Assembly (NCBI RefSeq): GCF_003315795.1
Contig: NZ_QMEY01000001.1
Span: forward strand, 124,001-188,000
Source: Spongiactinospora rosea
GTDB lineage: Bacteria; Actinomycetota; Actinomycetes; Streptosporangiales; Streptosporangiaceae
Length of the DNA: 64,000 nucleotides
Reading direction: 5' to 3'
Below the pieces are notes generated by a model, which was not told the origin of the DNA, did not search any database, and was given only the letters and a program-made list of their open reading frames with translations. The first letter of the stretch is position 1. Each line of letters starts with the position of its first letter. Shown here piece by piece: positions 15,078-18,750 of this stretch. The translations under genes and the position numbers were made by a program.

Positions 15078-15830
15078 TCAGCCGCCGCCCTTGCTGAAGT
15101 GCTGATAATCCTTGGTGCCGGACCAGGTGCCGCCCCATTCCCAGCCGAGGCGCTGGAAGGCGCGGACGACGCGGTCGCCGGGGTTGATCACGCCGGGCTT
15201 GTCGATGGGGCGGGTGGCGAATTTGCGGGCGTTGGCGTGGGCGACGGAGCCGCTGGCCGTGACGTAGGGGTTTTCCCTGGGGTTGATGTCGATGGCCTGG
15301 CCGTAGGCGTGTTTGGACCAGTTGCCCGAGCCGGTGGCGGCGCGGCAGTTGAAGGCGGAGGTGTTGTCGGCCTCGATGGAGTCGAAATCGCTGCCGCGGT
15401 AGGCGTCGACGCGCTTCATCTGCTTGATGGGGAAGCGCCATTCGTACAACTGCTTGAAGACGGTCTCGATGTCGTCGGTGACCGCGCGGTGGACGACGAG
15501 TTCGCCGGTGTGCGCCTTGTCGTCGAAACCCCAGTGGGTCAGGGTCACCAGGCGGAGGTCGCGCAGGGGGACCGGGCAGCCGGGTCGCCAGGAGTGGGGG
15601 ACGTCGGCGCGGGCGACCTTGGAGACCTTGGCGGTGTACTCGGGAGGCCCGGTCGGAGTGGGGGACGGGCTCGGGGTCGGGGTGGCGGGCGGGGGCGCGC
15701 TCGTCACCGGGGGCTGGGGGGTGGTGCCGCCGGTGGGGCCGAGCGCGTTGCCCGCGCCGCAGGCCGTCGCGAGTGCCAGGCACCCGGACAGCAGAAGTGC
15801 CGGCTGGAGTGTTCTCCCACGTGAGGCCAC
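15078..15830 (-). CDS. M15-family peptidase lipoprotein (D-Ala-D-Ala carboxypeptidase-like)
   Basis: A 250-residue exported lipoprotein. The lipobox is LALATAC-G (Cys about residue 24), followed by a Pro/Thr/Ser linker to about residue 62. The catalytic domain has the M15 zinc ligands: SKHAYGQAIDINP (His and Asp) and DYQHF (His) near the C-terminus, as in VanY/VanX-like and peptidase_M15_4 proteins that trim peptidoglycan stem peptides. The start is GTG 15830; TAAGCT lies six bases upstream, which suggests a leaderless mRNA. It converges on the small protein gene with a 14-base gap. Confidence 0.88.
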   Translation of the reverse strand: MASRGRTLQPALLLSGCLALATACGAGNALGPTGGTTPQPPVTSAPPPATPTPSPSPTPTGPPEYTAKVSKVARADVPHSWRPGCPVPLRDLRLVTLTHWGFDDKAHTGELVVHRAVTDDIETVFKQLYEWRFPIKQMKRVDAYRGSDFDSIEADNTSAFNCRAATGSGNWSKHAYGQAIDINPRENPYVTASGSVAHANARKFATRPIDKPGVINPGDRVVRAFQRLGWEWGGTWSGTKDYQHFSKGGG

Positions 15831-15859: not shown

Positions 15860-16783
15860 TCAGCCCGCAGGGTGATCGTGGCGGCGCAGCGCGTCGCCGA
15901 TCCACCGGTGGGCGGTGACCTGCTCCGGCGGCCACTGCAGGCCGCGGATGGTGTAGATCAGCTCCCAGTACCGGTGCGAGCGTGGGTCGTGCTCGTCGTA
16001 CTCCTTGCGCAGCGTCCGCCAGAACGCCGCGTCGTACGGCTGGCGGCGTCCCTCCGCGTTCAGGGCGACGATGCGCGCCAGGATCGGCGCGGCGGCCGGT
16101 GAGTCAGGTTCCACCCCGGCCCGGAGCGCGGCCGTGGCCTCCTCCATGACCCGCGCGCTGGCCTGCTGCCACGCCGCCAGGTCCATTTCGTTGGCGTCGT
16201 CCCAGAAGTCGGAACCCTGGCCGCGCAGGCTCTCGCGGTAGTCGTCGGTGGCCAGGAGTTCGGTCAGCTCCAGCCAGGCGTCGAGCTGTTCGATGGTGGG
16301 CTCGTCCGGCAGGTCGGGCACCATGGCCTCGCGCAGGCAGGCGAACCACTCGTCCAGCGCGGCGTTACCGCTGGCGACGTCGTCGGCGAAGTCGTTCGCG
16401 AGGCGGCGCATCTCCGCGGCGCCGTACCTGCCGAGGGCGTTGAGCCTGCGCAGGTCCTCGTCGGTCGGGTCGGTACGGTCCAGGGTGGCGCGCAGTACCG
16501 CGCGGGTGCGCTGGAGCGACCGCAGCCGCGTCTCGACCGCCTCCAGGTGGAGGGTGAGCACGTCGCGCAGGTCGCGGTCGCCGAGGCCGCGGATGGTGGA
16601 TAGGTCCACCCCGATCTCCCGCAAGGTCCTGATGACCTCAAGCCGGGCCCTGTCCTCCTCGCGGTAGAGGCGGTAGCCGGCGGGGGTGCGCTCGTACTCG
16701 GGGAGTACGCCGCTGTCGGAGTAGAACCTGATCGTCTTGACCGGTAGCCCGGAGAGTCTGGAGAGCTGGCCGATGGTGTACAT
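15860..16783 (-). CDS. MerR-family transcriptional regulator
   Basis: A 307-residue activator-type regulator. Residues 1-70 are a canonical MerR winged helix: MYTIGQLSRLSGLPVKTIRF, then AGYRLYREED, followed by the dimerisation helix (about 80-120). The long C-terminal region (about 140-300, with DFWDDANEMDLAAWQQASAR and a helical tail) is a ligand-binding domain that I cannot assign; it is as large as the drug-binding half of TipA-like regulators. It is divergent from the L11 paralogue, and a promoter with a 19-base spacer (the MerR hallmark) lies in the 44-base gap, so that gene is its probable target. GGGAGG lies 11 bases before its ATG. Confidence 0.9.
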   Translation of the reverse strand: MYTIGQLSRLSGLPVKTIRFYSDSGVLPEYERTPAGYRLYREEDRARLEVIRTLREIGVDLSTIRGLGDRDLRDVLTLHLEAVETRLRSLQRTRAVLRATLDRTDPTDEDLRRLNALGRYGAAEMRRLANDFADDVASGNAALDEWFACLREAMVPDLPDEPTIEQLDAWLELTELLATDDYRESLRGQGSDFWDDANEMDLAAWQQASARVMEEATAALRAGVEPDSPAAAPILARIVALNAEGRRQPYDAAFWRTLRKEYDEHDPRSHRYWELIYTIRGLQWPPEQVTAHRWIGDALRRHDHPAG

Positions 16784-16789
16784 ATTCGC

Positions 16790-16820
16790 TTGAGCCTCCC
16801 GTAACTGGAGACTTTAGCGT
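16790..16820 (+). promoter_or_regulatory. MerR-type promoter for the L11 paralogue (19-base spacer)
   Basis: -35 TTGAGC (16790-16795), a 19-base spacer and -10 TAGCGT (16815-16820). The spacer contains CTCC and GGAG as an imperfect inverted repeat around CGTAACT, as in MerR operators. Seven bases after the -10 box comes ATG 16828, so the mRNA should be leaderless. Confidence 0.7.
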
Positions 16821-16827
16821 GCCGCTC

Positions 16828-17250
16828 ATGGCAAAGAAGATCAGTCGCGTAGTGAAGATCCAGTCCAGGGCCGGTGAGGCGAACCCGGCGTCGGTGGGCA
16901 AGGACCTCGGCCCGCTCGGCGTCAACCTGATGGAGTTCTGTAAGCGGTACAACGCCGCGACCCAGGACCTTCGCGGGTTCGACGTCACGGCGGTGCTCAC
17001 CGTCTTCGACGACCGCTCCTTCGAGATGGTGACCAGGAAGCCGACCACGGCGTCGCTGCTGCGGCACGCCGCCGGGCTGGCCGCGGGCAGCCCTCGGCCC
17101 GGCCACACGCCGGCGGGGACGATCACCCGGGAGCAGCTTCAGGAGGTGGTACGCGGGAAAATGTCCGATCTCAACACCGATGACCCGGTGGAGGCCGAGA
17201 AGATCATCGTCGGCACGGCACGCTCGATGGGCCTGGTCGTGAAAGGGTAA
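16828..17250 (+). CDS. ribosomal protein L11 paralogue
   Basis: A 140-residue protein clearly of the L11 family: MAKKISRVVKIQSRAG at the start, GVNLMEFCKRYNAAT around residue 30-44, DRSFEMVTRKPT around 66, and a C-terminus ending IIVGTARSMGLVV like normal L11. It stands alone, without the secE-nusG-rplK-rplA context, so it is a second copy (inference). The N-terminal proline helix differs from normal L11: where usual L11 has NPSPPVGPALG it has NPASVGKDLG, one residue shorter and lacking the double proline and the VGP proline. That helix is where thiopeptides contact L11. It could replace L11 under a condition sensed by the adjacent MerR protein. The ATG 16828 is chosen from the -10 box and homology; ATG 16819 is less likely. 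Confidence 0.9.
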   Translation: MAKKISRVVKIQSRAGEANPASVGKDLGPLGVNLMEFCKRYNAATQDLRGFDVTAVLTVFDDRSFEMVTRKPTTASLLRHAAGLAAGSPRPGHTPAGTITREQLQEVVRGKMSDLNTDDPVEAEKIIVGTARSMGLVVKG

Positions 17251-17568
17251 GGGGCTCTGACCTGCGGCGACGCGAGCCAGCAAGATCTTTACTCGGAATT
17301 CGGCGAAAAACTCGCGCAGGTGTTCGATGCCGCGCTAAAGTCGATAGCAATCGGATCGAACACGGGTTCGGACCACGATCTTACCTGCGAGGGGTGCGCC
17401 ATGGGAAGAGCGATCATCGCGACGCCCGTCCCCGCGTGCGCTATGACGCTCAACGTGGCACCGCACCTGCTCGCTCCGAAGGCTCCGGGTCGGCCGCGGG
17501 CGACACGCCGTAGCACTTTCTACGGAAATCTACGACGGCCGCTATATCCCGTCATAAAGTCCGAGAGC
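17251..17568. other. gap between the L11 paralogue and the AAA ATPase gene
   Basis: About 320 bases. The ATPase frame is open through part of it, from 17320, but no ribosome site or homologous N-terminus supports translation. TAAAGT at 17555-17560 could be the -10 box of the ATPase gene. Confidence 0.4.
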
Positions 17569-18750
17569 GTGGATCCCGTGCGCAACCCCTATGCCCCCGG
17601 GGCCGGGCAGCGTCCGCCCGAGCTGGCCGGCCGCGATCGTGAGCTCCAGCAGTTCGAGGTCGTGCTGGAACGGGTGGCCCGTGGCCGCCCCGAGCGCAGC
17701 ATGGTCCTCACCGGGCTGCGCGGCGTCGGCAAGACCGTGCTGCTCAACACGTTCAAGTCGATGGCGATGCAGCGCCTGTGGGGCACCGGCAAGATCGAGG
17801 CCCGGCCCGACCAGTCCATCCGGCGGGCGGTCGCCGCCGCGATGCACATGGCGATCCGGGAGCTGGCCCCGCGCCACCGCGCCCCCGAGCGCATCGAAGA
17901 CTTCCTCGGCGTGCTCAAGGCGTTCGCGATGCGCGACCCCTCGGCCGCCAAGGGCACCTCCCACTGGTCGCCCGGCATCGACGTGCCCGCGAGCCGGGGC
18001 CGCGCCGACTCGGGCGACCTGGAGATCGACCTCACCGAGCTGTTCGTCGACGCCGCCTCGGTGGCGACCGACCTCGGGGTCGGCATCGCGCTGTTCATCG
18101 ACGAGATGCAGGACGTGCAGGCCGCCGACGTCTCGGCGCTGTGCGCGGCCTGCCACGAGCTGTCGCAGAGCGGCGGCCCGCTGATCGTGGTCGGCGCGGG
18201 CCTGCCTCACCTGCCGAGCGTGCTCAGCGCCAGCAAGAGCTATTCCGAGCGGCTGTTCCGCTACGCCCGCATCGACCGTCTCGATCGCGCGGCGGCCGAC
18301 CACGCGCTGATCGCGCCGGCCGAGCGTGAGGGGGTCGAGTTCACCCAGGAGGCGCTTGACGCGCTGTACACGGCGGCCGACGGCTACCCCTACTTCGTCC
18401 AGGCGTACGGCAAGGTCACCTGGGATCTCGCGCTCGGCTCGCCGATCACCGCCGACGACGTGCGACTGGCCGCCCCCGAGGCCGAGGCCGAGCTGGCGGT
18501 GGGCTTCTTCGGCAGCCGCTACGAGCGCGCCACCCCCGCCGAGCGCGACTACATGCACGCCATGGCCTCCATCGGCGACGAGCCGGTGGCCACCGCCGAG
18601 GTCGCCGAGGCGCTGACCAGAAAGCCGTCCAGCCTGTCCCCGGCCCGCGACAGCCTGATCAAGAAGGGCCTGATCTACAGCGCCGAACGGGGGTTGATCG
18701 CGTTCACCGTCCCGCACTTCGGCAAGTTCCTTCGCGCGCAGCCCGTCTGA
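17569..18750 (+). CDS. AAA-type ATPase (Orc1/Cdc6-like STAND/AAA protein)
   Basis: A 393-residue P-loop ATPase. The N-terminal part has NPYAPGAGQRPPELAGRDRE, the usual lead into this family; Walker A is GLRGVGKT (about residues 48-55), Walker B is ALFIDEMQD (about 175-183) and a C-terminal winged-helix segment follows (about 330-390). Such single-gene ATPases are common in actinobacteria and resemble Orc1/Cdc6-type or MalT-like NTPases; the function is not established. The GTG at 17569 is chosen because TAAAGT stands eight bases before it; GTG 17578 is an alternative. Downstream lie three direct repeats and a very strong hairpin. Confidence 0.8.
   Translation: MDPVRNPYAPGAGQRPPELAGRDRELQQFEVVLERVARGRPERSMVLTGLRGVGKTVLLNTFKSMAMQRLWGTGKIEARPDQSIRRAVAAAMHMAIRELAPRHRAPERIEDFLGVLKAFAMRDPSAAKGTSHWSPGIDVPASRGRADSGDLEIDLTELFVDAASVATDLGVGIALFIDEMQDVQAADVSALCAACHELSQSGGPLIVVGAGLPHLPSVLSASKSYSERLFRYARIDRLDRAAADHALIAPAEREGVEFTQEALDALYTAADGYPYFVQAYGKVTWDLALGSPITADDVRLAAPEAEAELAVGFFGSRYERATPAERDYMHAMASIGDEPVATAEVAEALTRKPSSLSPARDSLIKKGLIYSAERGLIAFTVPHFGKFLRAQPV

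Follow-up and report, generated by a model that had tools for sequence, protein, structure and literature searches.

Bacteria are known to withstand thiopeptide antibiotics by methylation of rRNA, by drug-binding TipAS proteins, and by copies of ribosomal protein L11 that producers carry inside the biosynthesis cluster. Promoters activated by MerR-family regulators have a long spacer (19-20 bp) that holds a dyad between the -35 and -10 elements. The thiazole rings of thiostrepton stack on prolines of the N-terminal domain of uL11, and mutations there confer resistance (PMC5960728). Similarly, the changes P22S, P23L, and G25V in L11 of B. megaterium lead to thiopeptide resistance (PMC9769715). 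The closest precedent for the locus described here is found in the thiocillin and micrococcin P1 clusters, where the L11 paralogues TclQ and TclT are likewise extra L11 proteins. They carry changes in the contact loop and are thought to replace native L11, and the cluster contains a MerR-family protein, TclU (PMC12724294, PMC10704990).

The window, that is the whole stretch of 64,000 nucleotides that was analysed, contains a gene for a second, altered L11, which we call L11b. It is transcribed divergently from a gene for a MerR-family regulator (Table 1). The arrangement is kept in many relatives and suggests a swap to a drug-insensitive L11 when thiostrepton-like antibiotics appear. Both L11 domains are recognized in L11b above the Pfam cut-off (PF03946, 74.7 bits; PF00298, 69.3 bits). 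The NCBIfam equivalog TIGR01632 scores 140.6 bits, just below its cut-off of 141.85, as would be expected of a divergent paralogue rather than of the standard rplK product. The AlphaFold model has the L11 fold (pLDDT 91.8), its best PDB matches are all L11 (E about 1e-15), and the C-terminal signatures of rRNA binding, GTARSMG and KxxDLN, are retained. Alignment and promoter spacing favor the ATG at 16828 over the GTG at 16819 as start codon. An earlier note on this DNA had described an isolated second L11 gene outside the usual ribosomal operon. The usual copy does sit elsewhere, in the nusG-rplK-rplA locus, and by PF00298 the 9.8 Mb genome holds exactly two L11 genes, L11b and the main rplK. 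L11b is thus not the only rplK, and the two products are 49% identical.

Table 1. Position of the L11b gene, its partner elements, the bordering genes, and the main L11 gene of the same genome (window coordinates unless a contig is named).
Feature	Position	Strand	Length	Basis or location
L11b (second, altered ribosomal protein L11)	16828..17250	+	140 aa	profile match and alignment
MerR-type promoter/operator	16790..16820	+		sequence; conserved in 33/33 loci
MerR-family regulator, divergent partner of L11b	15860..16783	-	307 aa	Pfam, profile comparison, conserved pairing
M15 peptidase gene (D-Ala-D-Ala carboxypeptidase type)	15078..15830	-		left border of insertion site
AAA ATPase gene, conserved part	17560..18750	+		right border of insertion site
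Main rplK	G000:C1:978238-978648			between nusG and rplA; PF00298 match

The two proteins differ in the loop that contacts thiopeptides. In the alignment, ATPAPPVGTALGP of the main L11 stands against ANPA-SVGKDLGP of L11b. In its core, NPA-SVGKDLG replaces TPAPPVGTALG by a one-residue deletion that removes the double proline, and by changes of T to K and of A to D. This bears out the loop sequence NPASVGKDLG without a double proline that had been read from the gene. The double proline is missing from all 32 full-length L11b proteins and present in all 60 canonical actinobacterial L11 proteins compared. The deletion together with the K and D of VGKDLG is fixed in the former (32/32) and found in none of the latter (0/60). 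Two other positions with fixed differences lie at residues 72-74, which read PTT in L11b and PPA in canonical L11. The earlier note had also taken loss of the proline in VGP as distinctive. This change is not special, because the host's main L11 and 41 of the 60 canonical proteins already have threonine there (VGT).

The MerR regulator and the operator between the two genes are features beyond those in the earlier note. The start of the MerR gene lies 44 nt from the ATG of L11b. The N-terminal half of the regulator matches MerR_1 (PF13411, 59.7 bits), and its C-terminal half is helical. A fold search was run with the whole model and returned matches that covered mostly the DNA-binding half. 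The best of them was the TipAL DNA-binding domain (2vz4; Z 12.2, rmsd 4.3, 99 aligned residues), a top rank with which other MerR domains tie within 1. TipAS (PF07739) scores 23.5 bits on the C-terminal part, slightly under the cut-off of 23.8. Profile-profile comparison against 16 TipAS sequences from related genomes gave a match at 94% probability (E 1e-7, residues 188-268). This match covers only about 80 residues of a sensor domain that is some 200 long. Of 30 members of this MerR group, only 8 reach a TipAS match at E 0.01. Tandem AlbA-like halves were considered as an architecture for the sensor and were set aside, as the first and second halves gave no match to each other. The C-terminal domain is therefore best called TipAS-like and drug-sensor-like, by a match that is weak and partial. 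The ligand could be a compound other than a thiopeptide. TipAS-class sensors answer diverse compounds (PMC7762955; AlbA, PMC6078987), and the sensor domain here is longer than a single TipAS domain. These facts would suit an albicidin-like compound, another peptide antibiotic, or, as with SkgA, an oxidative signal, with a protection unrelated to the proline contacts. This seems very improbable to us, since the output of the system is L11, the very target of thiopeptides, with the thiopeptide-contact prolines gone.

The intergenic promoter reads TTGAGC-CTCCCGTAACTGGAGACTT-TAGCGT. Its -35 element TTGAGC (16790-16795) and -10 element TAGCGT (16815-16820) are separated by a 19-nt spacer with the dyad CTCCCGTAACTGGAG. 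Scans for sigma-70 promoters and terminators near L11b found nothing, and for the sigma-70 scan this is expected because of the 19-bp spacer. The operator TTGAGtCTCCaGTaACtGGAgACTTTAgcgT is present at 33 of 33 L11b loci. Among the 32 loci aligned by script, 7 nt (29 loci, including the one in the window) or 6 nt (3 loci) separate the end of the -10 element from the ATG. The 33rd locus, L045, shows this layout too, with TTGACC. Because the -10 element ends so close to the ATG, a leaderless L11b mRNA is predicted, and its start should fall at the ATG or no more than one or two bases away. By pattern search, genomes with the cassette have one such site and occasionally two, and a reversed control pattern had no match.

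The second operator-like sites found in G000 (the host), G001, G002, G180, and G192 precede a gene for a putative Zn-protease of the DUF2268 family (L190:3469-4359 on G000:C2; L192, L193, and L194), again with an ATG close behind the -10 element; in G002 no intact ORF was recovered for it. A regulon shared by L11b and this gene was considered and rejected. The same gene has the operator CTCACGTNACGTGAG in family genomes that lack L11b, and therefore it probably has its own regulator. Another L11b-bearing genome encodes a stand-alone TipAS domain protein (L195:3305-3778 on G027:C10, 155.7 bits), whose gene follows a comparable operator of the MerR type.

L11b, taken as matches of at least 148 bits (57-100% identity), occurs in 33 of 343 genomes of the family. 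These belong to 10 genera, and its presence within genera is uneven. A class-wide search, for which 395 genomes were drawn, found no clear L11b outside the family. An intact divergent MerR gene accompanies L11b at 31 of the 33 loci, even where all other neighbors differ. At the remaining two, the MerR gene is truncated next to an intact L11b (L090) or missing (L078). Conversely, G253 keeps the operator and MerR intact next to an L11b that is wrecked after about 26 residues (L237, G253:C5 near 129929). The pairing is thus not absolute. The wrecked L11b of G253 and the truncated MerR of L090 would fit a decaying duplicate without function. We regard this as extremely unlikely for L11b as a whole, because the frame is intact in 33 genomes (one of them cut by a contig end), the operator is invariant, and dN/dS among close L11b pairs is 0.08-0.27 (the misaligned pair L079/L083 was left out). 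As judged from these ratios, L11b is under purifying selection and its persistence is not due to chance.

The cassette occurs in one syntenic group, in the order M15 peptidase, cassette, AAA ATPase, MauE-like gene, and in several unrelated surroundings. Several genera share one insertion site, and the cassette is a discrete insert that congeners lack. The M15 and AAA genes directly adjoin each other in eight cassette-negative genomes (L259-L264, L266, and L267; the spacing differs in L265), and therefore the cassette is a discrete unit of presence or absence. The flanking M15 peptidase and AAA ATPase genes are not thought to be part of the mechanism. As an aside, between genera of the family the AAA ATPase keeps 90-99% identity where its neighbors mostly reach 55-75%, which is unusually high conservation for an unnamed protein.

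A second group of variant L11 proteins was found in G009, G036, and G038 in the first search and in G554 in the class-wide search (loci L046, L047, L048, and L199). These proteins are about 40% identical to L11b, and their loop is wholly free of proline, e.g., DAAVADLGKTLG. They cluster in the tree with support of 100/99, on long branches that call for care in reading it. All four loci have a MerR-type operator upstream, and the locus in G036 also has a divergent MerR gene whose product is 36% identical to that of the window. The combination of a variant L11 with a MerR-type operator thus recurs. The two divergent groups of actinobacterial L11 variants may belong to a widespread, stand-alone form of drug-induced ribosome remodelling, independent of biosynthesis clusters, with a TipA-like sensor and a leaderless mRNA for an insensitive L11. 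We would give this broader view an even chance of being right.

For the locus itself, we think it rather probable that the MerR regulator, the promoter, and L11b form an inducible cassette for resistance by target substitution against L11-binding antibiotics of the thiopeptide type. Each step, from ligand and activation through leaderless transcript and ribosome incorporation to resistance, is one that we infer. The TipAS-like domain of MerR would sense an antibiotic of the kind that binds the GTPase-associated centre of L11 and 23S rRNA, most likely a thiopeptide. The drug-bound regulator would then activate the intergenic promoter through its 19-bp spacer with the dyad, and a leaderless L11b mRNA would be produced. 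L11b, with its L11 fold and rRNA-binding end kept, could take the place of the main L11, which it would have to displace, in ribosomes that are newly made or that exchange proteins. On such ribosomes the drug would lose its proline contacts, and translation could go on in its presence. The earlier note had suggested an alternative L11 that may protect ribosomes or modulate the stringent response. The first of these readings is considerably better supported than the loop alone allowed, because L11b comes with a TipA-like sensor of the MerR family and with a promoter of the MerR type at 31-33 of the 33 loci.

The main rival to the target-substitution reading sees in L11b a modulator that can be switched, acting on the stringent response or on the traffic of translation factors. 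A signal sensed by MerR would bring in a loop that no longer activates Rel, a natural and regulated relC state that alters ppGpp and secondary metabolism, with resistance as a by-product. L11 is the product of relC, and in Streptomyces, relC mutants no longer accumulate ppGpp or produce antibiotics (PMC6784132). The altered loop of L11b does sit in the N-terminal domain, and in Nonomuraea a duplicated rpoB changes stringent-type control of secondary metabolism. On the other side, the regulator belongs to the drug-sensing kind of MerR proteins and carries a TipAS-like part, the changes fall exactly on the drug-contact prolines, and the operator searches show no tie to starvation genes. We therefore consider this explanation unlikely as the primary role of L11b, while a stringent-response role and drug resistance could both be true.

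If L11b serves for resistance by target substitution, the drug might be foreign or made by the host. In the second case an unlinked cluster would make a thiopeptide-like compound, and L11b would confer immunity to it in the way that TclQ does for micrococcin. The genome is indeed rich in RiPP genes, with 6 YcaO and 10 lantibiotic-dehydratase C-terminal matches, and one YcaO gene lies beside LanB-type genes. However, no thiopeptide precursor in the genome scores above the model cut-off; a match to TIGR03892 reaches only 16.5 bits and has an internal stop. The YcaO gene beside LanB-type genes belongs to a cluster with a split lantibiotic dehydratase (L116, G000:C12:198001-217900). Its precursor ends in FSTGTCSSAGCVSTAGSSVTG, is unlike a thiopeptide precursor, and presumably resembles the goadsporin-type linear azole peptides instead. 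Precursors resembling those of class I lanthipeptides were seen near the split LanB genes of L121, L122, L124, and L125 (G000:C12, C17, C4, and C6), for example ...MCDSSDGCGSTCSTSACSTNSNDPA. An unlinked thiopeptide cluster was accordingly dropped as a candidate, since the LanB loci inspected carry lanthipeptide-like precursors and the YcaO/LanB precursor is not thiopeptide-like. A local cluster was dropped as well. The neighbors of L11b in the window (M15 peptidase, AAA ATPase, MauE-like protein, and sigma factor) do not form a thiopeptide biosynthesis cluster, and clustering of the gene neighborhoods of L11b loci revealed no biosynthesis genes in common. The presence of the cassette at one site in several genera also speaks against protection of a producer from its own product, which we hold to be quite unlikely. 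With no thiopeptide cluster at the locus or recognized in the genome, defense against the drugs of other organisms is favored over self-protection, and the source of the drug is probably environmental.

No description of a stand-alone L11 cassette under MerR control was found in a search of the open-access literature. Standard annotation overlooks L11b, as the gene is simply labelled "50S ribosomal protein L11." If the proposed mechanism is correct, a sensor-controlled swap of L11 in non-producers would be a resistance mechanism of environmental actinomycetes, and it would let one test directly whether bacteria swap ribosomal proteins as needed. The cassette would also be a marker for communities exposed to thiopeptides or producing thiopeptide-like compounds. 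In addition, L11b may be a naturally occurring L11 in which drug binding is uncoupled from stringent-response signaling.

Among the known systems, TclQ is like L11b in its altered thiopeptide-contact loop and in having a MerR-family regulator at hand. TclQ lies within a thiopeptide biosynthesis cluster, whereas L11b is stand-alone, actinobacterial, and divergent from a MerR gene of its own. The loops also differ. TclQ of pBac115 (L101:6001-6423) keeps the double proline (PAPPVGTALG), unlike L11b with its deletion and VGKDLG, and the change reported for TclQ, Pro to Thr, is already present in most actinobacterial main L11 proteins. The same PAPPVGTALG is the native main L11 loop of most actinobacteria examined. 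No MerR-type operator was seen directly upstream of tclQ on pBac115. Regulators of the TipA class (TipAL/TipAS, SkgA, Mta, and AlbA) have, as the MerR of the window does, a helical TipAS-like domain behind a MerR DNA-binding half, and the dyad between the -35 and -10 elements of their MerR-type promoters recurs at L11b. The known members serve drug binding and autoregulation, or control efflux and related targets, whereas the L11b cassette has a ribosomal protein gene as its output. With the rpoB(S)/rpoB(R) pair of Nonomuraea, another member of the L11b host's family carries an essential antibiotic target twice, once in altered form. The target there is a different one, and the accessible part of the description mentions no dedicated drug-sensing regulator. 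Finally, in relC (rplK) and thiopeptide-resistant L11 mutants, an altered N-terminal domain leads to resistance, and Streptomyces that has lost L11 shows a relaxed phenotype. The mutations there affect the sole L11, whereas L11b is a separate, regulated gene.
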